Shown here: one piece after another, positions 1 through 30,900 of the stretch
How positions within the stretch are numbered: the stretch's first letter is position 1
Layout of the letters: each line of letters begins with the position of its first letter
DNA from: Hondaea fermentalgiana
Taxonomy: Eukaryota; Sar; Bigyra; Thraustochytrida; Thraustochytriidae
Direction of reading: 5' to 3'
Length of the DNA: 34,132 nt
Assembly: GCA_014084085.1 (NCBI GenBank)
Contig: NPFB01000123.1
Span: forward strand, 2,299 to 36,430
Program-made: the position numbers and the translations under genes
The notes under the pieces: model-generated
The model's database searches: none
What the model saw: only the letters and a program-made list of their open reading frames with translations
What the model was told of the DNA's origin: nothing

Positions 1-385
1 CCAAGACTGCGCTCATTGAACCGATTGCAATTTCATGGCAAGTACGAAGCACCACAGAAATCCAGGTTAGTCTTTCTTCGTCTTTCGCGAAACCTTTTGA
101 CCGTTCTCACCACATACTTCAAGTTCTGCAGCGATTTGTGCTCGGCAAGCGCGCATGCCACGGCCTCAGCACCCCTATCGCCAATGCCGTTCTTGGAAAG
201 ACTGAGAGGGTAAAAATGATTAGGTATCGCTGCGTAAGTCTTGTTTGTTCATGCAACAGGAAAGCTGTCTCTGTTCTTCGTCGTAGCTTTTAGAAACTTA
301 CTTCAAAGAATGGAGCTCTGTGTATTTCGCAAGACCCTCCGCCATCTCCTTGGCGCCATGCGAACCAATGCCATCACCGGATCGA
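1..385 (-). CDS. LRR exons continuing past the left edge (partial)
   Basis: Three minus-strand exons are visible: 302-385, 118-201 and the first six bases of another at 6-1. The two complete ones are 84 nt, start with one base and end with two (phase 2), and encode 28-residue LRRs of ribonuclease-inhibitor type. Their cores are GDGIGSHGAKEMAEGL and SKNGIGDRGAEAVACAL. Both have good splice sites: donors GTAAGT (301-296) and GTATGT (117-112), and AG acceptors. They are more divergent than the cassettes at 978-3427, and their introns are shorter (100 and 111 nt), so they look older. They lie downstream of the stop codon at 481-479 of the neighbouring LRR gene. No start-codon exon in the right frame is visible between 386 and 478. 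They may be a 3' extension of that gene, reached by splicing at 515, or part of a separate LRR gene running off the window. Confidence 0.6.
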
Positions 386-478
386 CTGTACTCATCGAAA
401 CAAAAATATGGGAGTCAATAGGAAGCACCGATGTCGACGGTGGTGCGAACGTAGGATTTCGCAAAACGTTAATTAATC

Positions 479-3400
479 TCAGTCCAGCGTATGCGAAAAT
501 CTCAACTCAACGTACTCCAATTCTTTCGCAGCCTCAAATTCGGCATGCCGCTTGGCAGCAAGCTTTGCGCGCTCTTCAGCATGCTTTGCATGCTCTTCAG
601 CATGCTTTGCATGCTCTTCAGCATGCTTTGCGTGCCTTTCAAGATTGTACTTTCTGCGAAGCCTCTCGTCTCTAACGTGTAAAAAAGAATGAAGAGTGGC
701 ATGAACAAGAAAATCGGAAAAAGCGTGATTCAACATTAGTATTCTGACCTGCTCTTTCATCTGGCTTCCGTACATACCTGTTGTTTAGCAGTGCGTCTAT
801 TTCGCCCAACCTGTCTTTGCTGACCTCATTATCGTCAAGACTGCTCTCGATTCAAAATAGTGCCAACGCACACATGAATGGCGACGAACAGGGGAAATGC
901 CATAGTGCATCGAACGCGTTTTTATTAGTTCTTCTCGCTTCCCAGATGCGGTTTGACTTCCCTCACTCCCAACTTACTCAAGATCCTGCAGCAAGGTGTT
1001 CTCCTTGAGCGCATTTTTCAATGCTGTTGCGCCATCCTCGCCAATCTGGTTGCCCTCAAGACTGCGTTGATTTTCAGTTTTTGACGAAGTGAAAAGGTTA
1101 AAGCATGCATGGCAGCATGATCGAAGAAAGACACGAACAATAACAGCATCACGTATCGGGTTGGGTGATTTGTACCATTGCGAGTCGGTTAGTCTTTTTC
1201 CATTGCAAGCTTTTTTTACCTTTCCCGCGTGCAACTTACTAAAGCGACTGCAGCGAGTTGTCCTCATTTAGCGCATTCGCCAGTGCTGTCGCGCCATCAT
1301 GGCCAATTTGGTTGCCCTCAAGACTGCGTTGATTTTAGTTTTTTGACGAAATGAAACGTAAAAGCATTCATGGCAGCATGATCGAAGAAAGAGACGAACA
1401 ACCATAGCATCACGTATCGGGTTGGGTGATTTGTAGCATTGCGAGCTGGTCAGTCGGCTTCGTTCATTGCAAGCTTTCTTTGCTTTTCCCGCGAGTAACT
1501 TACTTGAGCTTTTGCAGCGACGCGTTCACCTTTAGCGCATTCGCCAGCGCTGCCGCGCCATCGTCGCCAATTGCGTTATCCTGAAGACTGCGTTATTTTT
1601 CATTTTTATTTTTGTGAAAACGTAAAAGCATGCATGGCAGCATGATCGAAGGAAGAGACGAACAATCAAAGCATCACGTGTCGGGTTGGGTGATTTGTAC
1701 CGTTGCGAGTCGGTCAGTATTTTTCGTTCTTCGCAAGCTTTCTTTGCTTTTCCCGCGTGCAACTTACTTGAGCTCCTGCAAAGTTGTGTTTTCCTTGAGC
1801 GCATTTGCCAGTGCTGTCGCGCCATCGTCGCCAATTTGGTTGATCCAAAGACTGCGTTAATTTTCATTTTCATTTTTGTGAAAACGTAAAAGCATGCATG
1901 GCAGCGTGTTGGAAGAAAGAGACGAACAATCATAGCATCACGTATCGGGTTGGGTTATTTGTACCGTGCGAGCTGGTCAATAGGCTTCGTTCATTGCAAT
2001 CTTTCTTTGTTTTTCCCGCGAGTAACTTACTCAAGCTCTTGCAGCGACGCGTTCACCTTGAGCGCATCCGCCAGCGCTGTCGCGCCATCGTCGCCAATTG
2101 CGTTCTCCCAAAGACTGCGTTAATTTTCATTTTTATTTTTGTGAAAACGTAAAAGCATGCATGGCAGCATGATCGAAGAAAGAGACGAACAATCATAGCA
2201 TCACGTATTGGGTTGGGTGATTTGTACCGTTGCGAGCTGGTCAGTCGTCTTCGTTCATTGCAAGCTTTCTTTGCCTCAACACCACACTACTTACTGAAGT
2301 ATCTGCAGCGACGCGTTCACCTTGAGCGCATTCGCCAGTGCTGTCGCGCCATCGTCGCCAATTGTGTTCTCCCAAAGACTGCGTTAATTTTCATTTTTAT
2401 TTTTGTGAAATCGGAAAAGCACGCATAGGAGCATGATCGAAGATAGAGAAGAACAATCATAGCATCATGTATCGGGTTGGATGATTTGTAACAATGCGAG
2501 CTTGTCAGCCATCTTCATTCTTCAAGAGCTTCCTTTGCATATCCTCACGCTACTTACCCAAGCTTTTGCAGCGACGCGTTCTCATAGAGCGCATTCGCCA
2601 GTGCTGTCGCGCCATCGTCGCCAATTTGGTTACCGCCAAGGCTGTGTTAATTTTCGTTGTCATTGACAAAGTGAAAACGTAAAAGTATGCATGGGATCAT
2701 GATGGAAGGAAGAGACGAACAATCATAGCAGCACGCATCGGGTTGGGCGATTTGTACCATCGCGAGTCGGTCAGTCTTATTCGTTCATTGCAAGCTTTCT
2801 TTGGTTTCCTCGCATGCAACTTACTAAAGCGACTGCAGCAACTTGCTCTCCTTTAGCGCATTTGCCAGTGCTGTCGCGCCATCGTCGCCAATTTGGTTGC
2901 CCCAAAGACTGCGTTTATTTTCATTTTCATTTTTGTGAAAACGCATACATGGCAGCATGATCGTAGAAAGAGGAGAACAATTATAGCATCATGAACCGGG
3001 TTGGATGATTTGTAACAATGCGAGTTGATCAGTCATCTTCATTCTTCAAAAGCTTTCTTTGCCTCTCCTTACGCTACTTACTCAAAACTTTGTAGCGACG
3101 TGTTCCCTTTGACCGCATTCGCTAGTGCTGTCGCGCCATCACGGCCAATTTTGTTTTTAATAAGACTGCAATTGTGTATTTTTTGACGAAGTGAAAACGT
3201 GAAAGCATGCATGGCAGCATGATCGAAGGAAGAGAAGAACAATCAAAGCATTATGTATCGGGTTGGGTGATTTGTACCATTGCGAGTCGGTCAGTCGTCT
3301 TCGTTCATTGCAAGCTTTCTTTGCCTCTCTTCACGCTACTTACTCGAGCGCCTTCAGCGATTTGTTCTCCTTTAGCGCATTCGCCAGTGCTGTTGCGCCA

Positions 3401-3631
3401 TCGTCACCAACTGCTTTCCACCGAAGACTGCAATTGTGCATTTTATGTGCAATGCGATCGAAGGGTGAGATTGGTAAGACATGACAGCCTTTTGGTCAGC
3501 ATAAACACAACGCATTGCAACGGGGCCTATTGGCAATTCAGAGTTGCTCGTTTGACTTACTTCAGGTTGGTCTCACCTTCTGACATTCGTCGGATTGCAT
3601 CGGCAATCACGTCTTCATAAGAGGTAGACAT
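479..3631 (-). CDS. Leucine-rich-repeat protein with tandem 84-nt LRR exons and C-terminal coiled coil
   Basis: Exon model (minus strand): 3631-3561, 3427-3344, 3165-3082, 2908-2825, 2641-2558, 2378-2295, 2114-2031, 1851-1768, 1587-1504, 1323-1240, 1061-978, 840-778 and 671-479. These total 1167 nt and encode 388 residues with no internal stop. The ATG is at 3631-3629 and the TGA at 481-479. Every junction is phase 2 with GTAAGT or GTATGT donors and AG acceptors. Exon 1 encodes MSTSYEDVIADAIRRMSEG. Ten 84-nt exons follow, each one 28-residue LRR with consensus LxxNxIGDDGATALANALK. A 63-nt exon gives a degenerate capping repeat (LDDNEVSKDRLGEIDALL). The last exon encodes a charged coiled coil with three in-frame HAKHAEE heptads. 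LRRs of this class (ribonuclease inhibitor, NLRC) form protein-binding solenoids. No kinase, NB-ARC, signal peptide or membrane segment is seen, so the ligand and role are unknown. The last exon could instead splice at 516/515 into exons further left. Confidence 0.8.
571..633 (-). repeat. Three-copy 21-bp in-frame minisatellite encoding HAKHAEE heptads
   Basis: Three consecutive 21-nt units (571-591, 592-612, 613-633) differ at a single base. On the minus strand they encode the heptad HAKHAEE three times inside the C-terminal exon of the LRR gene. A repeat length of 21 nt matches one coiled-coil heptad, so copy-number change would lengthen the coil without shifting frame. Confidence 0.85.
978..3427 (-). 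repeat. Tandem array of ten exon-plus-intron LRR units, period about 257-267 bp
   Basis: Ten copies of a unit made of one 84-nt LRR exon plus a similar intron. Exon left edges are at 978, 1240, 1504, 1768, 2031, 2295, 2558, 2825, 3082 and 3344. Introns inside the array are 173-183 nt. They share recognisable blocks: a stretch with GCATGCATGGCAGCATGATC (plus strand) near each acceptor, a central block with TCGGGTTGGGTGATTTGTA, and TTCATTGCAAGCTTTCTTTG near each donor. Homology extends through exon and intron alike, so the unit of duplication was genomic, not retroposed. Flanking introns (133, 137 and 106 nt) do not share these blocks. Confidence 0.9.
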
Positions 3632-8137: not shown

Positions 8138-10264
8138 ATGGAAGACTACGGGTCGCCTACGAGGACCTTGAAGTCAAGGTCGTCCGCCAGCAGTGGCAGC
8201 GAGGCAGCTCGAGCACGGAAACCAACATATCTGGACATTGGCGAGGGCCGTGACGCAAAGGATCAGCATCGCGAAAAGGAGAGCTCGCGACCCTTTAGCC
8301 CCGTGCAGTCGTATGAAATGGATCTCGATGCATTCGAGGCCGTGCTGCGGCAACGAGGCATTTTGCGCCAGATCGAGGCCACCTTCAACTTGATCGCCAT
8401 CCCCTTGCTCATCATGGCGGTTATTGGCGTCGGCTTTATCCTCGTCTGGGCCGAAGAGATCCTCGTTCCATTCGTCATTGCACTCTTTTTCACATACTTG
8501 CTCAAGCCTTTAGTGAATCTGCTGACGACACCGCTGCACTCATGCACAAATGCAACCTGTCTCAACTTTTTCCAACCAAGATGCTTTCGTGGTCCAGCCA
8601 GCACACCTTCGTACTCAAGCGCGCACTCGATGCGAAAGAACTTGTCTGGCGAACTTAATGCCTCTTTTGATCACGTACAGGTTCCCTTTCCCGGATCAGG
8701 GGATGATTGCAACGAAGAAATGGGCGACGACGGTGGCGATGTGGGTCTCAAGTCAAGTTCTCTAAATGCCGCTGGCGGTGAGGCACCTCTTCAAATGGAA
8801 ATGACATCGCTTCTGGACTGTACGTCAGGCCCCAAAACGGGTGGCGAGAGCGACCTGCGCTCGCGGCCGGCGACGCGCAATAATGCAGGATCGTCGTCTT
8901 CGTCGAGTTCTGCTTCCGCGCACGTTCATGCATCCTCAAGCCTTGGGAACACGAACACCGGAAGCTCGACTCTTGAGGCAAATAAGGCTCTGTGCTGGCG
9001 ATGCCGGCACTTTCGTTGTCCACGGTGGCTGGCTATTCTTATATGTATGCTTGTCGTGATTGGCTTTTTTGCCGGAATTGTCGTCATCATTGCTGATGCA
9101 ATTCAGACCTTTGAGGAGGAAGACATTGAACGTTTCGAGGAACGGACTGTCTTGCTTGCTTCTTCACTCAAGGATTGGGTCAGGCGCGTTTTTGGTATCG
9201 ACATTGCCTCCTTGCTGCAAGAATTCCGCAAGGGTTTCCACTGGGTATCGTTGACACAGACGCTCGTGTTTGGCGTGGTGAACGCTCTCGAGTACGTCTT
9301 TATCATCTTTCTCTTTGTGCTATATATGCTTTTCGAGAACTCTGAATCCGGCGGTGGCACCGACGCACCACGTCTGAGCAAAGCCCACTCCCGCGCACGC
9401 GATCTTCGTCGCCAGATTGATATGCAAATTCAGCGTTACATTGTCATCAAGGTGCTCATCTCGCTTGCCGTTGGTGTAAGCGTCTACGTCGTTCTCGGCC
9501 CGTTGCTCAACGTCAAGATGGCCCACGTTTTCGGGCTCGCAACATGTAAGTTTCGTCAGCGCCTTTTCGCTTTTCTCGCTCAATTGTCTGACTCCTCTTT
9601 CAACTTTTACTTGTCATGCGTGCGTCCACATTGTAAATATGACGTTTGGGAAATCTATTTGTTGCTTTTGGCGCAGTGTAAGTGCAAGCGTTGAATGCAA
9701 AGCGCATGGTTTCTCGAGCTTGACACGCTGACTCAATTCTTTCCGCGGCTATCTTTTCCTGTTGTCGTTCTACAATGTACACAGTTTGTGCAACATGGTT
9801 CCTACGGTAGGAGCAATGCTCGCAACATTGCTTCCGATCCCAATGATCCTTCTGGATCCTAATCAGAACACGATTAGCATGATTCTTGCGATTGCGCTGC
9901 CCGTACGTTTGTTTCTACAATTTCACAACCCATCACGTTCGCGCTTGTATTTAGATTCACCGCTGACACGTTAAGAGTCCTTTGGGGAGTACAGTCGCTC
10001 GTGCATTTACTGCTAGGGAACGTCGTGGAGCCCATGATCTTTGGTCACACACTCGAGTTGCACGCAATCGTTATTTTGGTGAGCCTTTCCTTTTGGTATA
10101 CAGTGTGGGGCGTTGCGGGTGCCATTCTTTCGGTTCCAATCACAGCCGTCATGCGGATTGTTCTCTCGCATATCAAACATCCGTATGCAGAAGTCCTTTC
10201 GTCTCTATTGGAAGGCAAACTTCCTGGTTCGCGTGCGTTTCACAACCCTGACCGTCGAGACTGA
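8138..10264 (+). CDS. AI-2E / TMEM245-family multispanning membrane protein, four exons including a 1-nt exon
   Basis: Proposed exons: 8138-9545, 9676 (one base), 9785-9902 and 9995-10264. They total 1797 nt and encode 598 residues. ATG 8138 has strong context (AAAGATGG). The PF01594 (AI-2E/PerM/TqsA) layout is clear: a TM pair at residues about 85-130 (IAIPLLIMAVIGVGFILVWA), TMs from about 294, then the signature GLATFLCNMVPTVGA, a GNVVEP motif and a C-terminal pair with FWYTVWGVAGAILSVPIT. The family includes bacterial transporters and eukaryotic TMEM245; the substrate here cannot be told. A Ser-rich loop of about 160 residues is inserted after TM2. Introns are 9546-9675, 9677-9784 and 9903-9994, all GT-AG. 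Joining 9545 directly to 9785 shifts frame and hits TAG at 9808. Adding the single T at 9676 restores exactly the family spacing and the conserved Phe. Confidence 0.85.
9676..9676 (+). other. Candidate single-nucleotide exon (T)
   Basis: The base is flanked by a polypyrimidine-rich acceptor TTGCTTTTGGCGCAG on the left and a perfect donor GTAAGT on the right. Exon 1 ends in phase 1 (ACA T) and exon 3 begins in phase 2 (T TTG TGC AAC). Inserting one T makes codon TTT, the conserved Phe in the family signature. No other GT-AG pairing I could find preserves both frame and signature length. Confidence 0.65.
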
Positions 10265-11562: not shown

Positions 11563-12293
11563 GCCTCCGTGCCTGACGTCTTCACGAGTCGAGGCTGCTG
11601 CTCGCGCGAATGTCCCCGCTCCAGAACGAGCTCGCGCGCGGGACCACCTCGCGTCACCTCGCGTCGCCGCGCGTCGGCTTGCCTCGCCCCGCGTCGGCCG
11701 CCAAAACGCGCGTCTTCTTTGCGGATTTGCGAGAAGACCTCGCAAAGCCGCTCCTCCGCCGGTCGTTACAGGGGACACGCGCCGGGGGTCCCGCCCCGCC
11801 GCCGATTTCGAATTTGGAATTGGGGTTGCGCAACGTGGCGAATCGGGGTTGCGCACGCCGCGCCGCAGCGCCAGTTTACTGTTAGTATAGGCTACGAGCA
11901 GGAGAGAAGAAGGCCGAGAGCAGCTTGAAGAAGATCGAGAGCAGCAAGGCAAGAGCAGTTCTTCTTGTGCTGCGCGCGACGCGAGAGGCCGGCCAGCTGG
12001 TCGTCGGCGTGCCCGGCGGTCGGGCGGAGTCTGGACAGTCGAGTCTGCGAGTGTTACGACGTGGCAGGCTTTTCCCTGAAGGGCGAGCGACTTTGTGCGA
12101 CCGACGGGCCTCGGCGACGAAAGTGAGGAAGGAAGCCAAGCCGTAGAGCTGGGCCAAGACGTAGGTTTGGGCCTTGGCATTTTATCAAGGGCGCCTCAAG
12201 ACCAAGTGTTGAGTCTGCGTCGATACATTGCGCCGTCTAGAAAATAACCAAGAGGAGTCTTCATCGCACGCGCGGTGTGAAAAGGTCTCTCGA
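11563..12293. other. Divergent promoter region between D-box gene and esterase gene
   Basis: About 730 bp, GC-rich near 11600-11870, with tandem CCTCGCGTC-like motifs, an E2F-like word at 11699-11707 and an exact 11-bp direct repeat GGGGTTGCGCA (11822-11832 and 11845-11855). No gene is seen apart from the unlikely N-terminal extension of the D-box protein. Confidence 0.55.
11699..11707 (-). promoter_or_regulatory. E2F/DP-like site upstream of the D-box protein gene
   Basis: The minus strand reads TTTTGGCGG about 137 nt before the start codon, close to the E2F consensus TTTSSCGC. It would fit cell-cycle-controlled expression of an APC/C substrate. A match this short in GC-rich DNA can easily be chance. 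Confidence 0.25.
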
Positions 12294-13268
12294 ATGGGCG
12301 GGGGACCCACGTGGCTTGACACGATGGCGACCACAACGCGTAACGAGGACAACGATGCCGGCGTACGTCCTCAAAAAGAGGGGATGAAGAACGACGATGG
12401 CGAGAATTCCTTGGTCTGGGTTCTCGCGGGACAAAGCAACATGGCCGGTCGTGGAGGATTGGGAAGTGTTCCGGGGAAAGCAGCGTGGACCGCAGATTCA
12501 ACTCGCAAAGCCCACGCGTATGGAGCGCTTGGCCCGGTGGAAGGTGTAGAAATGCTTTTAACGGATGAAAAAGGAAGCCGAAACGGATGGTGCAGCGCCT
12601 GTGAGCCCATGCATGCAACCGTGGATATTAACAAAGTCTGCGGTGTCGGGCCGGGCCTGCTCATGGCCAAAAACTTTGTGGAAAAGACGTCTAAGCGCGT
12701 GAGACTCATCCCATGTGCTGTAGGAGGAACCAGTATCTCAGGTAAGTATTGGCTCTCTCGCTGATTGTAAATTCTTGCGTTCTTCTTTTGCTCACCACCA
12801 ACACCCCCCTCCCCCCAAAAAAAACATTTGGCGGTGCCGCGTGCAAAACGTGTTTGCACTGCAGAATGGGCGCCAACTGGCGCACTGTATCAGGCAACGC
12901 TATCACGGGCGCAGGAATGCACGCCTGATCTCCTCGTTTGGTATCAAGGCGAGTCAGACGCAATCGAAGAAGACAAGGCAATTGCGTATAGTGCGCGCTG
13001 CAGTGAGCTGTTTGCAAACTTTCGACGAGATTTTGGCACTCCCTCTCTTCTCATCTTGGCCGTTGTTCCCATTGGCGATGCCTTACGGATGCCCTTTCTA
13101 CCCCAGGTCCGAGCAGGAATTGAGGAGGCTGTGAAAAATGACGCGACAGGTTGCTCTCGTATCGTGTACGTTCCTGAGGGAGCGCAAATTCGCGCAGATG
13201 GTCTTCACTTGACTCTGGAATCGCAAGCACTCCTTGCGCAGGCCCTGTGTTCTACTCTTTTGCAGTAA
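12294..13268 (+). CDS. SGNH-type carbohydrate esterase (SASA / sialate O-acetylesterase-like, CE6-like)
   Basis: Two exons, 12294-12741 and 12865-13268, with a 123-nt GT-AG intron (phase 1), encode 283 residues. All family blocks are present. VLAGQSNMAGRGG carries the catalytic Ser48. CAVGGTSIS ends exon 1 and EWAPTGALY begins exon 2, so the split motif GGTSISEWAP confirms the splice. LVWYQGESDA is around residue 178, and ADGLHLT supplies Asp261 and His264. Relatives remove acetyl groups from sugars or xylan in bacteria, plants and fungi. No signal peptide is evident, so the protein may be cytosolic. ATG 12294 has weak context; ATG 12324 (GACACGATGG) is an equally good start and would shorten the protein by ten residues. 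The gene diverges from the D-box gene and converges with the sugar transporter. Confidence 0.88.
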
Positions 13269-18163: not shown

Positions 18164-18974
18164 CTTCCTCTGCGATCCGGGCTGCCGTACCGTTCGGCAG
18201 CGCGAAAGAAACCCGACGACGTCCTCCCGGGCCTGCGCGTTTCCGCGGACTTCTCGCGCCGAGTCCAGCCGGGTCGCCTCGAGTCCCGTCGCTCCAGGCG
18301 AGCTTTGCTTTGTCTGGTCGCGTCTTCTGTTCCGGTTTGCTCCGGCAAGAATTTCCTTCTCGACGCCACTCGAGGCCCTTCGCACGTCTGGGCCTTCTGG
18401 AACCTCTGGTTCTTCTGCCGCAGAAGTGGCCTAAAAAGGAGTCTAACGGCCCTCTCCGAGAGCGCTACGAGCGGGTTAGCGGAAACGCTACGGCAGGTCC
18501 TCGCGTGCCGCGGCGCGCAGGCGATGGCAAAAAGCGCGAGGCTCGAGCGGAAGAGTCGCAGTCTTGCGCGCCTCTTGCAGGCAGAAGAGGGCGGCGGCAC
18601 GCTGCAGCGAAAGGGCAAGGGGGAGGGCGAGTATTGATTGAGCGAGAGGCGCCGGCAAGCCAGCAGGAACGAGCAAGCGAACGGTCAGAGAAAAGGAGTC
18701 CTGCAAGCAAGCAAGCAAGTCAAAGAGGCAACCGTACTGAGCTGCGCCGAGCCGCGCAGCGCCGCGCCGCGCCGAGCCGAGGCCGGCTGCGTCGGGGCCG
18801 CCCTGCCGCGGGGCGATCGAAGGAACGGAGGAGCGAAAGACAGCGAGCAGGTGGAGCGAAGTGAGGACGACAAGCTAGCTCCCTTCGACGGAAAACCGGA
18901 CTCGCGCCGCGGGAAAGCCAAACTCCGCGATAACAAAGTAAAAAGGGGTCGTGGACACCGCCGACGACGACACC
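18164..18974. other. Divergent promoter region between Zim17-like gene and dynein gene
   Basis: About 810 bp, GC-rich with Arg/Ala-coding open frames on both strands that look compositional. It holds a short CAAG repeat (about 18704-18719) and a GCCGAGCCGCGC-type repetitive stretch (about 18742-18785). No gene or RNA is recognised. Confidence 0.6.
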
Positions 18975-21900
18975 ATGAGCGCAGCCGATGAGAACCTAGC
19001 GCTACATACTTGGGTCCAAAAAACCGTCTGCACAGGCCTCGACGTTGACGAGTCCGTCTACGTCAACTGGAGCGAATCGCGAGGAAAAGTAGAGCTCGAC
19101 ACCTTCCTGGCGAGTGCGCCGTGCGAGACCTGCTTCATCTTTGTGCTCGAGGGCGAGGACGAGGAGGACGAGGACAGCGATAACCACGACGGCGCCGACA
19201 ATGGAGCAGAAAAGCAAGGCAGTGAATTTCTGTCCCTGTTTCACAAAGTGCTTCTTCCTGGCGAGCTCCCCGGCATGGGGCTCGCGGGACGGCGGCAAGT
19301 CTATCTGTGCAAGACAATAGATGGACCTCTTGGAGACGGCCAAGATGATCAGCTCGAATTTGGCGTCCTCACAGGCGATCCGCTTGCCGATCTGGGCGAC
19401 ATTATTCGCGAGGTCTACATTCCCCTCCTCGACAGAGCTGCCCCCGGAAGGACCAGCCCGGGCCTCGACGATCCGATTCGGTCTCCGGGCGCCAGCAGCG
19501 GGCCCGAGCACGAGGCCATTAGCGATAGCGGCATCGATGTAGACTTTCGCGAAGCCGAGGCAAAGGGAGGCGACGGTGCACAAGCGCTTGGCGTCACCAA
19601 GACTTCCCTCGCCGCCAAAACCTCTGTCAACATCATGGAGCAGTCTGCCTCGTCCTCTCTGAGTCGTGAGCTGCGTGCAAACATGCAAAAGTTTGAGTCG
19701 CAAATCGAACATGCCTTGCAGCAAGTCAACGGCGACGTCCACCTCTACATTCCAGATGTTGCCATTCAAGACCTCGATACAATCGCAGACGACTACGAGG
19801 CCGTGAGCCAACTCGAAGAGGCTCTTGAGGAGTGGTCCAAAGCCGTTTCCCAGGTCGTCGACCAAGAGACGCGCAAAACACCGCAGCGTGCCGGGCCCTT
19901 GGCAGAGATTGAGTTCTGGCGCAAGCGGAACGCCGCGCTGAGTGCTCTGTATGAGCAAATCAGCCTTCCCACGGTACAGCACATGCTCAAAGCTCTCGAA
20001 CTGGTGGAGGCTAACATGTTTCCCACTTTCCGCTTCCACTTTGCAGAGCTTACCAAGCTCTATGTCGAGGCCAAGGACAACGTAAAGTTCCTTTCCACGC
20101 TCGAGAGGCATTTTAAAGCGATCAGCTCCGGAACACTCGGATCCATCCTTGACACACTGCCGTCCATGATGAACGCGATCCGAATGGTCTGGATCATCTC
20201 GCGCCACTACAACACTGACGAACGCATGGTGCCACTCATGGAGCGCATTGGTGGCGAGATCGCCGACAAGGTCGCCACAGAGATTAGCATTCGGACCATT
20301 CTGCGCAGGTCCCCCGAAATCGCGCTGAAATCCATCTCCGAGGCCAGCACGGTGCTCGAAAGCTGGTACAAGACCTACATGTCTGTGCGCGAGAAGATTG
20401 AGGCCAGTGGAACCGACCATCGCTGGGAGTTCGACCGTAAACGTCTCTTTGAGCAGACCAATTACATGGCCAAAATCTGCGAGAACCTTCACGAGGTCGC
20501 CCTTGTTCTCGATCAGTTCCAAAAGTTTCTCGGCCCCGAACTCAAGGCCGTGACGGGCGACTCTGAGGGCATCGACGAAGTCATGCGTCGCGTCGAAGCC
20601 CTCATCGACCCGCTCGAGTCCGTGCCTTTCGATATCTTCGACCGTCGCTACAAGACGAGCTGGGACGCGGTCATGTCGCAATTCCGTCTCAAGGTTGACG
20701 AGATTGAGGACATGACGAAGCGCTTCATCGACACCTCATTCCAAAAGCTGCGCTCGGCAGAAGGTGCCTTTGACCTCTTGCAAAACTTTCAAAACATTCA
20801 GAGTCGCGAGTCCATCAATCGCCAAATGATGCAAAAGTTCGACGATATCCTCTTGCAGTACAGCAAGGAGCTCGAGCGCGTCCGAGAAACATTCGAGGCC
20901 AACGCGGCGGAACCTCCCGTGTTCAAGAATTTTCCGCCCGTCGCGGGCTCAATCGCTTGGGCCCAGCATCTCTACTACCGTGCCAAGCGACCCATTATGC
21001 GCTTTCGCAAGATGGAGTCCTGGTTCGACGGTTCACAGACTTGGCAAAACGTCATGGCAGAGTACATTAGTTTTGCAAAGGTCATCAAGGAGTACAGCAA
21101 GAACAAATATGCCGAGTGGCAGGAGCGAGCCCACGCCACAAGTCTCCTCCTTCAGCAAGCCGTGCTCGGCCCGCCGCTTGTTCCCATCAAGGACGGCGCA
21201 AATCTAGAAGACTATGACGCCGAGTCCCGCGTCACCGGGCTTTGCCTTCCGGAACCGCCATACTACGTCAACTTTAGCGATGATCTCGTGCGTCTCATTC
21301 GCGAGACAAAGTATCTCGATCGCATGGGGTACCAGGTTCCCGAGGCCGCGCTCAATGTAGCTCTTCAAGAGGAGAAATACCACGGCTATGTGCAGGCGCT
21401 CAATGAAATGCTCGAGAACTACCACGCAATTTTGCGCAGTCTGCGACCCGTGGAGCGTCGCCTTGTCGCAACGCGGCTGCGTGAGCTCCAGTCTGAACTG
21501 CGCCACGGTTTTGACCCTTGCAACTGGTGCTCGCTGCACATTCCCACGTTGATCGAACGCTGCACCAAGGCCATTAACGAATTCCAAAGCGTGATCGTCC
21601 AAATTCACAAGAGCTCGTCCATGATTGAGGAGGTCATTGAGAGCATCGAAAACGCTGCGCTCGTCGATGTAGATCTTTTTGCGGACCGACTGGGCCGCAG
21701 CAGCCAGCACTCTGGGAAACCTGGGGGCGCTGCTCCAGCATCCTCACCCGCTGCGATCGCTAGCGCGACTGCTGTTCCTGTCGCGGACGCAGCAGGAGAG
21801 GCAGATGCAGATGCAGATGGAACGATGGAGATCTCGGTGCTGTACGAGACCCTCGAAAAGTCCCTACAGGAAAAGGTTGCCGCGCTCGTTCGCAAGTACG

Positions 21901-24900
21901 AGTCAATCGGGCCGCTTCTTGTCAAGGTCGAGGAAATTGTTGCGTCCTCAAACACCGGTGCAAGTCCCGTGCTCGCAGAGTTTTACAACTTTTGGGAGAA
22001 ACGCATGTACAACGCGATTACCAAAATGGTCATTCGCGGCATCGCTTCGTTCGAGGTGCTTCTCAATCTCGATCGCGAAGGAGAAGGCGCAGGCGCTGCC
22101 TTGAGTGACGATGGTATGGGCGCTTCCAGCGCCGCTGTCGGGCCTGCGACAAACATGAGGCCGCCCCTTTGCCATGTCCAGGCGGCATTAAACGGAAGCG
22201 ACGTCAGTGTTTCCCCTGCGCTCACTGACATTTACAAGTACGTGAGCCGCATTGTGCGAAGTATCGTGGAGAGCTCCAAGAGCTTTCATCGCTGGATGCG
22301 GGGCACGTGCAAAGAATGCGAGCCTGTGGTGGTGAGCGAGGACGAAGACCCAATTGTCTTTAGCTTTTACCAGGACGTGTCAAAAAGCCCACATGTGATC
22401 AAGCTCATGCTCGGTCTCAATCACAGTTTCCAGCGGACCTTTACGATCGTGCGCCGGTACCTCGATACTTGGCAGCGCTATGACGAGGTCTACGGGCTTT
22501 GGGATACAAAGCGCAAGGAGCAGCTGGGCCGCCTGCGGGACAAAAAGCCATCCTGCGTCTACTTTGACAACCGCATTGCAATCTACGACAAGCTTTCCGA
22601 CACAGTGCGCGCACAGACCTCGCGCAAAGATATTGACTTTTTGCGCATTGACTGTTACTCAGTGCAGGCCGGCCTTTCTGCACGCGCGCAGCAGTGGACC
22701 GAGGAGTACGGCCGAGTTCTCTTTGAGATCGCCAAGGGCCGAATCGACGCTCTCAACGAGGAGGTCCGTCAATGCCGCGAAGTCCTCGAATCCGATCCCA
22801 ATGACCTCGAGGAGCTCAAGCATGTTTTGCACGTTATTGCCTCCGTAAACGAAAAGACCATGGTCAAGGAGCTCGAGATTGCCGATATCATGGAAAGCTT
22901 CCGCACGCTCGCCAAATTCGAGCTTCTTCCGGACCGTCTCATCGTAGAAACCGAAGAGACGGCAGCAGCTGCTGCCGCTGCACCATTGTCTCCCAAAACA
23001 CCTGGTGCTGATGGTGCGAATAGCTTGCAAAACCGTATCCAAGAGGCGGAGGCTGCATTTGCCGATGCGCGTACGCTCGACGAAACATGGCGACAGCTCG
23101 TGCTTGACTCCAAGACCAAGGATTTGCGCATGGATCAAGTCAAGGACGAGTTTCGTCAGGTCACGCAAACTTCGGCAGAGGACTTTGTCACGACGGTGCG
23201 TGCACTGAAGCGCGCCTTTGAGACCACTGGTCCAGGCACGAAATCTAACGGTGATGGTGAGCTTGATGAGGGCGTCGAGCTCATGGAGCACTATGTGGAG
23301 AAACTTGCGCACATGTTCCGTGAGCGCGAGCAAATTGTCAACGCGCAAAAACTCTTCAACCTCGACATTACCTCGTACCCCGAACTGAACCAAGTCAAGA
23401 CCGAGCTTAGCAAGCTGCAGCAAATCTACGGCTTGTACTCGGAGCTCAAGGCCTTTGAATCTGAAATGTCGAGCATGCTCTGGAGCGAGCTCGATGTGCA
23501 CGCTCTGCTCAAGGGTGCAGAGGATCTCGAAAAGAAGCTTCGCAAACTCCCCAAGGAGTTGCGTGCCATGTCAACGTACGACGCCGTCGAGGAAGCAATT
23601 GTGCGCTTCCGCGACTCGATTCCCCTCATTCAGAGCCTGAAGAATGACGCCATGAAAAAGCGTCACTGGGACAAGCTCTCCAAGGTCACAGGCGTGGTCT
23701 TCGAGATGGACCCGAAAACCTTCACGCTCGGTGCACTTTTCGAGATGAAGCTTGCACGCTTTGAGGCAGAGATTGCCGAGATTGTCAATGAGGGTAACCA
23801 GGAAGCCAAGATTGAGAAGGCGCTCAAGGACATTGAGGAGAAGTGGAAGGATACGAACTTTGGCGTGGCCAAGTACAAGAAGAATGGCGTTGACAAGGGT
23901 TTTGTCCTACGCTCCTGCGATGATATCAAGCTTGAGCTTGAAGACAACATGCTCAATTTGCAGACCATGAGCGGATCTCGCTTTGTCGTCTCCTTTGCAG
24001 ATGTCGTTCGCAAGTGGGAAAAGCAGCTCAACCACGTTCTCGAAACCATCGATGTCTGGTTCAAGGTTCAGAGCAAGTGGATGTACCTCGAAAGTATTTT
24101 CGTTGGTGCCGAGGATATTCGCATGCAGCTTCCCGAGGAGGCTAAAAAGTTTGACCAGGTCGACAAAGCATGGAAGGGCGTCATGGTTGGCACCTCCAAG
24201 AATCCCAACGTTGTAGAGGCCTGCCATGCCGAGAACCGCATTGAAACCCTTCGCGCTCTCAGCGAGCGTCTCGACCTGTGCCAAAAGTCTCTGAGCGACT
24301 ACCTCGACACGAAACGTAACTCGTTTCCGCGCTTCTTCTTCATCTCTGATGACGAGCTTCTCAGTGTGCTGGGCAGCTCGGATCCAACCTCGATCCAGGT
24401 TCACATGCTCAAGCTCTTCGATAACACCAAGTACTTGCAATTTGGACGCGGTGCCAAAACTGTCATTGGCATGGGATCTAGCGAAGACGAAGAATTTAGC
24501 TTTGCAACTCCCGCGCCCGTGGAGGGACCTGTCGAGCAGTGGATGACCACGGTGGAGAGCGAAATGCGCAAGTCGCTTCGCAAGATTTCCAAGGAGGGAA
24601 CCTTCTTTTATGCCAAGCAAGATCGTGTGCAGTGGGTCGATGATAACATTGGCATGACCGGTCTTCTCGGCACGCAGATTTGGTGGACCTGGGAAGTCCA
24701 GGACGTCTTTCGCAGAGTGCGCGATGGAAACAAGCACGCCATGAAACAGTTTGCCGACAAACTCACGGCGCAGCTCAATGAGCTCGTTCACAAGGTCCGT
24801 CAGAACATTTCGAGCCACATGCGCAAAAAGGTCAACTCTTTGCTCATTATCGATGTACATGCACGCGACATTGTCGACAAGTTCGTGCGTGATTCCATTC

Positions 24901-27900
24901 TCGACGAGCGCGAATTTGCATGGGAGTCACAGCTGCGCTTCTACTGGGATCAAGTCGTTGACGACGTGATCATCCGCCAGTGTACTGGTGCTTTTGACTA
25001 TGGCTATGAGTTCATGGGTCTGAACGGCCGTCTCGTGATTACCCCGCTTACAGATCGCTGCTACATGACGATTACGCAGGCCCACACGTTTAATCTCGGT
25101 ACTGCACCAGCTGGTCCTGCCGGAACAGGCAAGACAGAGACCGTCAAGGATCTTGCCAAGGGTATGGCGCTTCCGTGCTTTGTCATCAACTGTGGTGAAG
25201 GTCTTGATTGGAAGGCCATGGGTTCCATCTTTAGCGGTCTGGCGCAGATTGGTGCGTGGGGATGCTTTGATGAGTTCAATCGCATCAATATTGAGGTGCT
25301 TTCTGTCGTCTCTGCGCAGCTGCAGGCCATTCAAGGAGGTCTCAAGGCCGGGCGGAAGAAGGTTGACATTGGTCTTGGATCCGAAATTCGTCTTGACAAA
25401 AAGATTGGTGTCTTCGTCACCATGAATCCTGGTTATGCCGGTCGCACGGAGCTTCCTGACAACCTCAAGGCGCTTTTCCGACCCGTCACCATGATTGTTC
25501 CAGATCTTTTGCAGATTTGTGAGATTATGCTTTTCTCCGAAGGTTTTGGGCTCGCTCGCGGACTCGCCAAGAAGATGACCACGCTGTACTCGCTGGCCAA
25601 GGGTCAGCTTTCCAAGCAACATCATTATGATTTCGGTCTGCGCGCTCTCAAGTCTGTGCTAGTCATGGCAGGTGGCCTCAAGCGCCAGTACGCCGAGATG
25701 CCAGAAGATCTTGTGCTGATGCGTGCGCTTCGTGACTCGAACATGCCCAAGTTCGTGTTCGATGATGTGCCTTTATTCCGCGGTCTTATTGCTGATCTCT
25801 TCCCGGGTCTCGACTGCCCTCGCGTCGCTTTTGAGCTTCTCAAGGTCGAAATTGAGGGGTGGCTTGAAAAGAACAGCTTCCGACCTTCTGACGAGGAAAC
25901 CTTCCAGCTGCAGGTGGACAAAACCATTCAAATGTACGAGACGCTCCTTACGCGTCACACGTGCATGATTGTCGGACCCACCGGAGGTGGCAAGACCGTT
26001 GTGCTTGAGTGTCTCCAGGAGGCGCAAGGCAAGGCTTTTGACCAAAGCATCAAAATGTTCGTGCTCAACCCCAAGGCGCAGACTTTGCCAGAGCTCTATG
26101 GTGAGCTTGACCCCGTGACACGTGACTGGACAGACGGTGTGCTCAGTAACCTGTTTCGCTCCATGAACGAGCCGCTGCCAGCTGGCCGCGAAAATGAGCT
26201 GCGCTGGCTCATCTTCGATGGTGATGTTGATGCGCTCTGGATTGAGAACATGAACTCTGTCATGGACGACAACCGTCTGCTTACCCTGCCGAACGGAGAA
26301 CGCATTCGACTCCAGCCTTACTGCAAGCTCATCATGGAAACCTTTGACCTTCAGTATGCCAGTCCAGCGACAATTTCGCGCTGTGGTATGGTCTATGTCG
26401 ATCCCAAGAATCTCGGCTACAAACCGTACTACGAGCGATGGGTTCGCACGCGTGATCCCGCGAGCGAGCAAGGCGGAGCGGCTGGAGATGATAACGAGGC
26501 GGAGGGCAACGCTTCCGAGGCTGCAGACGCACGAGCCCACCTTCAGACGCTACTTCTTGAGCTCTTTGAGACCTATGTGCCCAAGTGTATCGACTTTGTG
26601 CTCGAGGGTGTTCTCGAGGAGGAAATTGTCGAGCGCCCCACGCAAGTTGTGCCGATCACGAACTTGAGCATGGTCAAGCAGCTTTGCGCTCTCATGGACG
26701 CAATGCTGGCGCTGGGCGGTCTCAAGGACGACCCCGATGCTCAAAACGCAGCGGAAGAGGCCGAAGAGATGGACGCCGCGGCCGCGGCGATGGCTAGCAA
26801 ACAGCAGCTCAGTGATGTGGACGTCGAAGGACTTTTTGTTTTTGGTGTGGTGTGGTCGATTGGAGGTCAGCTTCTCGAAGAGTCACGCGACCGTTTTGCA
26901 AGCGTGGTTGCAAGCTGCTCGTCGACGGGTCTTCCCGAGAAGCTCTTTGACTCCTATTACGACACTACGACCTGCCGATGGGAAAAGTGGGAGTCGCGCG
27001 TCCCTGCGTATCAGCAGCCTTCGCCCTTTGAGTTCAACCGCATCATGGTTCCGACCAAGGAGAACGTGTTGTATACGCAGCTTTTGCGACTCACAAAGGT
27101 GGTCGAGAAGCCTGTACTGTTTATTGGTGACCCGGGTACAGCCAAGACAGTGACCATTCAGAACTTTATCGACAGCCAAAAGCAGGAGTCGCACATGAAG
27201 TTGAATCTGAACTTTTCCAGTCGTACCACGAGTTTGGACGTGCAGAACAACATTGTGGATGTGGTCGACAAGCGCACGGGTCGTATCTATGGCCCGCCTG
27301 CTGGAAAGCAGTTGCTCATCTTCATTGACGACATGAACATGCCGATTGTAGACACGTATGGCACGCAGGCCCCGATTGCGCTTTTGCACTTTCTTGTTGG
27401 CAAGGGCGCCATGTATGACCGTGGCAAGGATCTGGATTTGCGCATCTACAAGGATCTTCAGTTCTTTGCCGCCATGGGCCCTCCTGGTGGTGGGCGCAAC
27501 AATGTCGACCCGCGCTTTATCTCACTTTTCAACGTGTTCAACCTTACACCGCCTAGCGAGGCTGTGTTGACCCACATTTACAGTTCCATCATTACGTCTT
27601 ACCTCAAGGACAAGTTCGACGACAACGTTGTGGCTCTCGGACCCAAGATCACGTCTTGCACTTTGCGTTTGTACAACGCCCTCTTGCTTGCGCTACCCCC
27701 TACGCCGTCCAAGTTTCACTACGTGTTCAACTTGCGCGACTTGGGACGCATCTTTGAAGGCATGTGCCGCGCCACGCCTGATGAGTTTGACGGCATGCCC
27801 GGGTCCGTGGTGCGACTGTGGCGCAACGAGTGCGCACGCGTTCTCTTTGATCGTCTCATTTCGGAAGAGGATCATCTGTATGTTCGCGAGGAGTTCACCA

Positions 27901-30900
27901 CCATTTTGGCAGAGAACTTTCCCGAGCACGTTGACGCTGTAATGGCGGAACCGATGCTCTTTGGTGACTTTACGCAGGCTGTGAGCCGGCTCGCAGAGGA
28001 AGCGGAGGACCCAATGATTTACAAGGATCTGCAAACCTTTGACACGGTGCGCAAAGTGTTTGATGAGGTGCTCGAGCTCTACAATGTCGATAACAAGCCG
28101 ATGACACTTGTTCTCTTTGAGATGGCCATCGAGCATTTGTGCCGCATTTACCGCGTGCTTGGTCTTCCGTTGGGCCATTGCTTGCTGGTTGGTGTCGGTG
28201 GTAGCGGCAAGCAATCGCTGACGCGTCTTGCCACCTTTGCGTGCGGGTACAAGATCTTTGAGATTGTGCTCTCTCGTGGCTATGGCGAAAAGGAGTTCCG
28301 CGATGATCTCAAGGAGCTCTATCGCATGCTCGGTGAGGGCCCTGTCGTCTTTCTCTTTACGGATGCCCATGTTGTGGAGGAGGGCTTTCTTGAACTCATT
28401 AACAACATGCTTACCACGGGCATGGTGCCAGCACTCTTGGAGAATGACGAAAAGGACGCGGCATGCAATGGTGTGCGCGCTGAGGCCAAGGCCGCGGGGC
28501 TCATCGACACCAAGGACAACCTGTGGGCCTTTTATGTGCGCAAGTGCCGCATGAACTTGCACATTGTGCTGGCCATGTCGCCAAGTGGAGACACGTTGCG
28601 CGTGCGATGCCGTAACTTCCCCGGACTCGTCAGCGGATGCGTGATTGATTGGTTCTTTCCTTGGCCCGCCGATGCGCTTCGGAGCGTGGCCAACTACTTT
28701 TTGCAGGACGAGCCCCTTCCCGAACAACAGCGCGAGGCTATTGTGGAACACATGGTCGTGGTGCACCAGGGCGTGATTGAATCGAGTGAGCGCTTCTACG
28801 CAGAGCTGCGGCGCCACAACTATGTGACCCCCAAGAACTTTCTCGACTATCTAGCCAACTACAGAGCTGGAATGAAGGAGAACAAGCGCAAGGTTGAAGA
28901 AAACATCAAGCGTCTCGGCGGAGGTCTCACCAAGCTGCAAGAAGCAGAGGTCTCTGTGGATGCCATGAGCAAGGAGCTCGCTTCGAAGAAGATCATTGTC
29001 GACGGCAAGACAAAGGATTGCCAAGAAATGATTGCCGACATTGATGCGAAGCAAAAGATTGCCGCCGAACAGCAAGAGGCTGCCGAGCAAAAGAAGAAGG
29101 AGCTCGAGGAGAGCAACGAGATCATTGTGGCCGAAAAGGCCAAGGCTGACGAGCAGCTCATGGAGGCCTTGCCCGCGCTCGAGGCGGCCGCCGAGGCTCT
29201 TGACAACCTCGACAAGAACGACATTACTGAGATCAAGGCTTTTGCGTCGCCACCCCCTGCCGTGGCCTCCGTGTGCATGTGCGTCGTGTATCTGCGACCC
29301 ACAGGAACGGAAGATGAGAACTCGGGCTGGAAGGGTGCCAAGGCCATGATGGGCCAAGGCAACTTTCTCGCTTCGCTCAAGGCGTACGACAAGGACTCGA
29401 TCACGGAGAAGATGATTCGCAAGGTGAAAACCTACTTTCGCGACCCGGAGTTCAACATGGAGAACATGAAGAAAATCTCCAAGGCCGGCGCCGGTCTGTT
29501 TCAGTGGGTTATCGCCATTGTCAAGTACCACGAGGTCGCACGGAATGTCGAGCCTCTGCGTAACAAGGTCCGTGACCTCGAAAAGCAAAAGGCGGCTGCC
29601 GAGAAGGAGCTTGGGGAGATCATGCAAAAGCTCTCCGAGCTCGAAGAGCAGCTCGGAGAGCTTAACGCCAAGTTCTCGGAAGCCAATGAGGAGCTTACGG
29701 CGCTTCGTGACGAGGCACAGCTCATGGAGAAGCGTCTTACGGCCGCAAGCAAGCTCATTGAGGGCTTGAGTTCCGAGAAGGAGCGCTGGAGCAAGGACAT
29801 TGCTGGTCTCGAGAGCAAGACTGTACAGCTCGTGGGCGACTGCCTTCTGGGAGCCTCCTTTCTCTCCTACTTGGGCGTGTTCACCTCCAAGTACCGTCGC
29901 GAGTTGGTGGAAGGTGTCTGGGAGCCGGATGTGCGCGAGCGTGGCGTACCGCTGTCGGATGACTTCAAGGTTGAGACGTTGCTGACGGACGATGTTGAAA
30001 TCCAAAAGTGGAATGGCGAGGGCCTCCCCGGTGACGACCATTCGATCCAGAACGGTATTCTTACCACGAACTGCTCGCGCTTCCCCCTTTGTATCGACCC
30101 GCAGCAGCAGGCCGTCAAGTGGATCAAGCGCAAGGAGGCGGCGAACAACTTGACGGTGCGCACGTTCAGCGACGGTGACTTCATGAAGCATCTGGAGCTC
30201 GCGATCCAGTTTGGTAATCCGTACCTCTTTGAGAATGTCGACGAGGAACTCGATCCAATGATCGATCCTGTGCTGGAGCGCAACACAATTGTTGAGAATG
30301 GCCAGCGCATGATTGTGATTGGCGACAAAAAGGTCGATTGGGACGCAAACTTTAGGCTCTACATGACGACCAAGCTGGCCAACCCGCATTACACGCCCGA
30401 AGTCATGGGTAAGACGATGATCATCAACTACAGTGTGACGATCTCGGGTCTTGCAGATCAGCTGCTCAACGTGGTCGTGGGACATGAGCGTGCGGATATT
30501 GAGGAGAAGTTCGCAGAGATCGTCACGCAAATGAGTGATAACACGCAAGCGCTTGCCCAACTCGAAGATACCCTGCTCAAGACCCTAGCGTCGTCGACGG
30601 GTAACATTCTCGATAACGAAGAGCTCATTGCCACGCTTGAGGAGGCAAAGACCAAGGCCGTCGACATTCACGCGCAAATTGAGAATGCATCCTTTACAAA
30701 GGACGAGATCCAGTCCGCTCGTAAGCAGTACCAGCCCGTGGCGAAACGAGGCTCGATTCTCTTCTTTGCCCTGTCCGGTCTTTCGACGCTTATGCGCATG
30801 TACGAGACTTCGCTGGCCTCGTTTCTCACTGTGTTTCAAAAGAGTCTCGACGATGCAAAGAAGGACGGCATTCTAGACAACCGTCTGCGCAACATGATTG

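Follow-up and report, generated by a model that had tools for sequence, protein, structure and literature searches.

A predicted single-nucleotide coding exon in a nuclear AI-2E family transporter gene of Hondaea fermentalgiana

A predicted exon of one nucleotide in a transporter gene

A nuclear gene of Hondaea fermentalgiana predicted to encode an AI-2E family transporter probably contains a constitutive protein-coding exon that consists of a single nucleotide, the T at position 9677 of the window (i.e., the whole 34,132-nucleotide stretch of contig NPFB01000123.1 analyzed here); this prediction is made from DNA. The T is preceded by the acceptor CGCAG (9672–9676) and followed by the donor GTAAGT (9678–9683), leaving one base between AG and GT within an apparent 239-nt intron. 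With the T kept, an open frame of 598 aa runs on the + strand from a Met at 8138 to a stop at 10264, and the gene is read as follows.

8138..9545, + strand: coding exon 1; open frame from Met 8138, ending in phase 1 (..GCA ACA T, then GTAAGT)
9546..9676, + strand: intron A; 131 nt, GTAAGT...GGCGCAG; non-coding score in all three frames
9677..9677, + strand: predicted one-base exon (T); second position of the Phe codon TTT
9678..9784, + strand: intron B; 107 nt, GTAAGT...TACACAG, with CTGAC at 9728–9732; non-coding score in all three frames
9785..9902, + strand: coding exon 3; begins with the third base of the Phe codon, followed by LCNMVPTVG...LAIALP; the expected frame has the best score of the three
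9903..9994, + strand: intron C; 92 nt, GTACGT...GTACAG; a CTGAC is located 28 nt before its end
9995..10264, + strand: coding exon 4; stop TGA; the Pfam AI-2E match above cut-off extends into this exon

The one-base exon was first proposed in a sequence-only reading, and it proved to be the best fit among the enumerated alternatives and in view of the homologues, the rarity of the motif, and a homology-free scan. That reading had correctly recognized the acceptor-T-donor motif but placed it at 9671–9682, one base too early; similarly, two half-introns do flank the T, but their lengths are 131 and 107 nt, where 130 and 108 nt had been given. The frames agree both with the proposed end of exon 1 (9545, phase 1, donor GTAAGT) and with a coding block that starts at 9785 after TACACAG and requires two carried bases. 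A CTGAC branch-like motif had been claimed for each half-intron; intron B contains CTGAC at 9728–9732, but the claim is weak for intron A, where the A of CTGAC is 85 nt away from the end of the intron and a TATGAC (9638–9643) is located nearer to that end. CTGAC showed only mild enrichment after GTAAGT.

Exon 3 ends at 9902 in phase 0, and the acceptor TACAG at 9994 preserves the frame into exon 4, with a junction (..ILAIALP/SLVHLLLGN..) that matches the homologues P0001 and P0002; an acceptor at 9975 was rejected for intron C because it is out of frame. As the junction at 9994 keeps the frame, the transporter gene has a single frame problem, which T 9677 would solve. The protein predicted by the T model matches the PF01594 (AI-2E) profile at 134.3 bits, as compared to a curated cut-off of 34.3, and its FLCNMVPTVG conforms to the family stretch F-x-x-N-x-x-P-x-x-G, a pattern taken from the alignment; a sequence relative with a solved structure is TqsA (7nb6; found with P0001 as query). 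The predicted gene product is a eukaryotic AI-2E family transporter, and transport is likewise predicted. The window's own protein in the database, P0006, comprises the 469 codons of exon 1 and ends at FGLAT; the one-base exon model would account for this public entry stopping at exon 1.

A public protein search yielded 165 matches among 7,996 scored candidates; the best 120 of the 165 were used and P0006 was excluded, leaving 119 homologues. When the T is kept, the translation reads FGLATFLCNMVPTVG, which is letter-identical in P0001 (91% identity over residues 290–598) and differs by one residue from FGLATFLCNLVPTVG in P0002 (86% identity). A 15-column stretch around the T codon contained no gap or insertion in 119/119 homologues (best 120 of 165, minus P0006), and exon 3 aligned to its relatives without gaps. 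At the codon spanning the T, this same set of 119 presented 87 Phe, 10 Leu, 7 Cys, 6 Ala, 4 Val, 3 Thr, and 2 Gly; among the 23 nearest homologues (P0001–P0024 minus P0006), all but P0020, which has Val, presented Phe. The homologues agree with the claim that inclusion of the T gives both the conserved length and the conserved Phe. No second allele or close paralogue that could serve as a control was found in the assembly, where a 965-base DNA search of the region matched itself only (single copy). L003 and L004, distant AI-2E relatives encoded in the assembly, were considered as another control, but each passes through the region in one frame and neither was informative.

As had been predicted, omission of the T leads to a stop (TAG, 9808–9810) and to a truncated protein of 477 residues; partly spliced forms also end early, with 470 residues if intron B is retained, 521 if intron A is retained, and 518 if both are. 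The stop of the skip form is located 92 nt upstream of the 9902/9995 junction. Because a stop so far upstream of an exon junction usually leaves an mRNA open to nonsense-mediated decay, the skip mRNA would be open to this decay. The skipped, half-spliced, and unspliced forms would all be expected to represent loss of function. The further suggestion that the T could act as an on/off switch found no support in this analysis; we infer that the RNA is spliced as modelled here and that the exon is used constitutively.

Alternative readings of the junction

In the enumeration of middle exons, the flanking exons were kept at 9545 and 9785, acceptors had to be AG, donors could be GT or GC, and the minimum intron length was 30 nt. 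Seven left the frame open, two of which gave the exact protein, i.e., T9677 (CGCAG/T/GTAAGT) and T9683 (GTAAG/T/GCAAGC). The latter has a GC donor and a weak acceptor; since its mRNA is identical to that of T9677, cDNA alone cannot distinguish the two. Middle exons C9689 and C9703 gave Ser, and the remaining three in-frame ones inserted residues. Longer middle exons were rejected, as those in frame add residues or rely on weak sites, and lengthening exon 1 to the donor at 9678 gave a wrong frame. Single introns with donors between 9470 and 9689 left the frame open in 59 cases, including 14 that keep NMVPTVG; none of the 59 had the length of the T model. Of all the enumerated alternatives, the T exon alone combines consensus GT-AG sites with the conserved residues and the correct length. 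Programmed frameshifting was judged by eye, and no slippery heptamer was noticed at ACATTTTGTGC.

Four single-intron alternatives (donors 9550, 9535, and 9586, and intron 9546–9813) were scored by Pfam, and the T model was better by 8 to 28 bits. Over the last 313 residues, the AI-2E match was 121.5 bits for the T model and 113.4, 109.0, and 96.8 bits for the single introns from donors 9550, 9535, and 9586, respectively; for the complete forms, the T model's 134.3 bits compare with 106.7 bits for the form using the in-frame acceptor at 9813 and 58.5 bits for the truncated skip form.

The alternative that survives best, which we nevertheless consider unlikely, is a sequencing or assembly error that removed one T at the junction (at the end of exon 1 or in the TTT run 9785–9787), in which case a single 239-nt intron would be present and the internal motif would be coincidental. 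A T absent at either place would yield the same protein, and a length of 239 nt is compatible with the 97–296 nt spanned by 12 introns that were predicted ab initio from the assembly sequence retrieved. However, such an error would have to lie no more than a few bases from the junction, and the same intron would have to contain CAG-N-GTAAGT by chance (2.3e-4). In addition, the frames of the dynein heavy chain and PI3-kinase genes are unbroken over 17.2 kb, which limits the indel rate to less than ~1.7e-4 per base at 95%; inclusion of L003 and L004 (23.0 kb) would lower this bound to 1.3e-4, but those frames had been picked for being open, and the 17.2-kb bound is therefore preferred.

A single GT-AG intron at 9550–9784, with the weak donor TAA/GTTTCG, would leave a stop-free frame that retains LCNMVPTVG (..FGLATCNLCNMVPTVG..) and reaches the best Pfam score of the single-intron forms scored (113.4 bits). 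It appears very improbable, as it falls 8.1 bits under the T model over the same stretch, replaces the Phe by Cys-Asn, and thereby adds a residue that is found at this place in 0/119 homologues (best 120 of 165, minus P0006); it would also bypass a full GTAAGT four bases upstream and leave CAG-T-GTAAGT unexplained.

We give even less credit to a single canonical intron at 9546–9813 (acceptor GGAG), which would be in frame and stop-free (..FGLATSMLATLL..) at the cost of FLCNMVPTVGA. This form scores 27.6 Pfam bits lower than the T model and removes a stretch that is ungapped in 119/119 homologues (best 120 of 165, minus P0006); the skipped bases 9785–9813 still read as family sequence, and TACGGTAGGAG is a poor acceptor that lacks a pyrimidine tract. 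Equally hard to credit is a non-canonical single intron (e.g., GTAAGT...ACA or TAAGTT...CAG), for which one extra G kept at either end would fit both frame and length (..FGLATCLCN..); this would require a boundary other than GT or AG, with a GT and an AG available one base away, would leave the internal motif unexplained, and would replace by Cys the Phe of 22/23 near homologues, although Cys does occur in 7/119 (best 120 of 165, minus P0006). A recent pseudogene, in which one base was truly deleted at the edge of the exon, which would explain why the frame breaks unless the T is counted, is just as implausible, given that the rest of the 598-codon frame is intact, with 91% identity to P0001 over residues 290–598, and that the same coincidence of position and motif would be required.

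Rarity of the motif and introns of the window

The pattern CAGNGTAAGT occurs 70 times in the 36.0-Mb, 238-contig assembly when both strands are considered (31 and 39 on the two strands). At this genome-average rate, 2.3e-4 occurrences would be expected per 239 nt; the rate inside introns may differ and could be higher. For the T version, CAGTGTAAGT, which accounts for 20 of the 70 sites and contains the only base giving Phe, 6.3e-5 occurrences would be expected per 239 nt, while the looser YAGNGTRNGT is expected 0.007 times (estimated from 247.6 kb of sequence with the 70 selected sites subtracted). Read backwards, the same pattern has 227 occurrences in the assembly, about three times as many as the 70 of CAGNGTAAGT, a difference that may only reflect the rarity of GTAAGT.

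All 70 sites were also scored without homology, with an ordinary donor compared to a one-base exon between two introns; the scoring used an order-2 model with author-set thresholds and training partly on this window. Two other models, one based on a codon table and one of order 4, had been too weak for the scan. The one-base-exon model fitted 3/70 sites; two of these also scored as ordinary donors (3.2 and 3.9), while the site in the window did not (−4.0), and its sole one-base-exon solution was the one with introns of 131 and 107 nt. Among the 70 sites, 19 reached an ordinary-donor score of at least 3, and in 15 no frame was open across the 120 bases that precede the donor. Further one-base exons may exist at these 70 or at other sites.

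The 12 introns predicted ab initio had a median length of 159 nt, and the half-introns, at 131 and 107 nt, fit the sizes of these other introns, as the sequence-only reading had stated. Introns A, B, and C (131, 107, and 92 nt) are ordinary in size and sites, but an intron of 239 nt would not be impossible either. Sites similar to those of introns A and B serve other introns in the window, i.e., ten in a leucine-rich repeat (LRR) gene and one in an esterase gene, although the GTAAGT donors result partly from the search design. The LRR gene (301–3427, minus strand) contains 11 exons of exactly 84 nt, each encoding one 28-residue repeat and following GCAG or ACAG; these exons were located by their GTAAGT donors, and this donor is therefore present by construction. 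The donor spacings imply introns in 10/11 cases (one of 133 nt and nine of 173–183 nt), the last spacing being 676. When joined, the ten LRR exons from 3343 to 977 matched Pfam LRR_6 at 165.6 bits; an exon-by-exon search of the assembly with LRR_6 gave none on this contig among the matches listed. Most LRR exons are located in a 264-bp tandem array (971–3410, 9.3 copies), in which an exon and its intron of roughly 180 nt appear to have been duplicated as one unit. The carbohydrate (sialate) esterase gene (12213–13268, + strand; Pfam SASA, 158.8 bits) has one 123-nt intron (12742–12864), and its joined frame is open to the stop.

The dynein heavy chain gene (18942–33206, + strand) consists of 4,755 codons in one uninterrupted frame with its Pfam domains in order, and the PI3-kinase gene of the window presents 971 codons, also in one open frame with Pfam domains in order. 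The uninterrupted dynein heavy chain frame thus shares the window with an LRR gene that has an intron at nearly every repeat. The possibility that introns A and B are duplicates of each other looked promising against a plain base shuffle (2/200 as good) but not against Markov shuffles (34/500, and 44/500 with the donor kept), and was rejected; introner-like copies were rejected as well, since the 965-base DNA search matched itself only. No Rfam match was found in the window at the gathering threshold.

Splicing route, known systems, and relatives

T 9677 would be flanked by two ordinary U2-type introns. Factors bound to a donor and an acceptor located one base apart would collide; as such an acceptor and donor could hardly be bound simultaneously, the two introns are probably removed one after another, in either order. 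If intron A were removed first, the T would join exon 1 and the donor would become ACATT/GTAAGT; if intron B were removed first, the T would join exon 3 and the acceptor would become GCAG/TTTTG. Each order would rebuild a normal site for the second step, in a manner resembling a ratchet point that keeps one base, and both would lead to a single mRNA, ACA TTT TTG TGC, encoding T-F-L-C, a strongly conserved stretch of the family. Because tiny exons are considered difficult for the splicing machinery, this locus makes a sequential, ratchet-like route testable.

The exon predicted here would be a further case of a known, rare kind. The sequence-only reading had correctly cited Arabidopsis APC11 as a precedent; others are known from VPS55, Fusarium CYP621A, and snoRNA host genes of Candida. 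In APC11, as here, one base lies between AG and GT in an apparent intron (422 nt), the frame needs it, and annotation missed it (PMC4674806); the same report notes the view that the splicing machinery has difficulty binding at both sides of a very small exon. The 1-nt exons of plant APC11 and VPS55 are also described as absent from annotations, with GTRAGT donors in VPS55 and an intronless APC11 in most monocots; for soybean APC11, reads are reported not to have mapped unless the 1-nt exon was supplied (PMC8831610). The base in Arabidopsis APC11 is an A in a plant gene, with proof from cDNA and reporter constructs (PMC4674806), and the plant APC11/VPS55 exons are described as conserved throughout the land plants and backed by RNA-seq and RT-PCR (PMC8831610), whereas here the base is a T in a transporter gene, read in one genome from DNA alone. 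For Fusarium CYP621A, the published argument is the same as ours, in that a phase-1 exon cannot join a phase-2 exon and an intronless relative sets the length; the base is also the second position of a codon within a conserved motif, as here, but the arrangement is AG-G-GT, described with 20 orthologues and 18 RNA reads, as compared to AG-T-GT in one genome (PMC12940212).

Candida-group snoRNA host transcripts are reported to contain two introns one base apart, as here, but with non-coding exons; nested or recursive routes were described there from RNA-seq, and one cluster with a single-base exon is said to splice classically (PMC5033589). As both kinds of route have been described, the sequential splicing of introns A and B is a step that we infer. 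Drosophila ratchet points also combine an adjoining acceptor and donor with stepwise removal, but these sites are described as directly juxtaposed in long introns, whereas one base is kept here (PMC8605326); T 9677 is accordingly distinct from a zero-nucleotide exon, in which AG is joined directly to GT. Stwintrons resemble the present case in that consecutive splicing reactions clear one apparent intron, but there an internal intron is described as splitting a splice motif of the external one (PMC5639578), while the donors and acceptors of introns A and B are complete, with one base between them. Exons of 1 bp in databases have been reported, as unverified (PMC3064661), and one was described in placozoan mitochondria (PMC5436844). 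Among the papers listed by the literature searches, including those on labyrinthulomycete splicing and on thraustochytrid introns or microexons, no title or abstract opening indicated a one-base exon in a stramenopile. For other protist genes that appear frameshifted, the present gene makes a case for checking AG-N-GT.

The closest homologues of the window's PI3-kinase, P0121 and P0122, are on contigs of 29,210 and 96,251 bases, equal to those of P0001 and P0002; these equal contig figures suggest a shared gene neighborhood, such that P0001 and P0002 probably come from genomic contigs with the same two neighboring genes. Scans with P0001 found no locus, and the relatives were compared as proteins. 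The proteins P0001 and P0002 are whole, with P0002 starting with an upstream extension from Val, as in a plain open-frame call, while the window's own entry P0006 stops at exon 1; this difference, which was counted against the one-base exon model, hints that the relatives lack the arrangement. Their genes would then be read without a one-base exon, being either intronless or normally spliced, and if so, the arrangement would be young. We tentatively raise the possibility, which we consider somewhat less likely than its opposite, that the one-base exon was born recently in a single labyrinthulomycete lineage, as relatives with the same two neighbors seem to lack it, that its introns are cleared only sequentially through a ratchet-like site keeping one base, and that it is the first nuclear coding exon so small outside plants and fungi among the papers listed by the literature searches; if this were true, the birth of a one-base exon could be dated.

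Among more distant homologues, P0008 (52% identity) is from Aplanochytrium stocchinoi, a labyrinthulomycete. P0018 (51% identity) is filed as the chytrid Batrachochytrium salamandrivorans (BASA81) and is identical to P0017 in the aligned stretch; it may represent labyrinthulomycete contamination of the BASA81 assembly.
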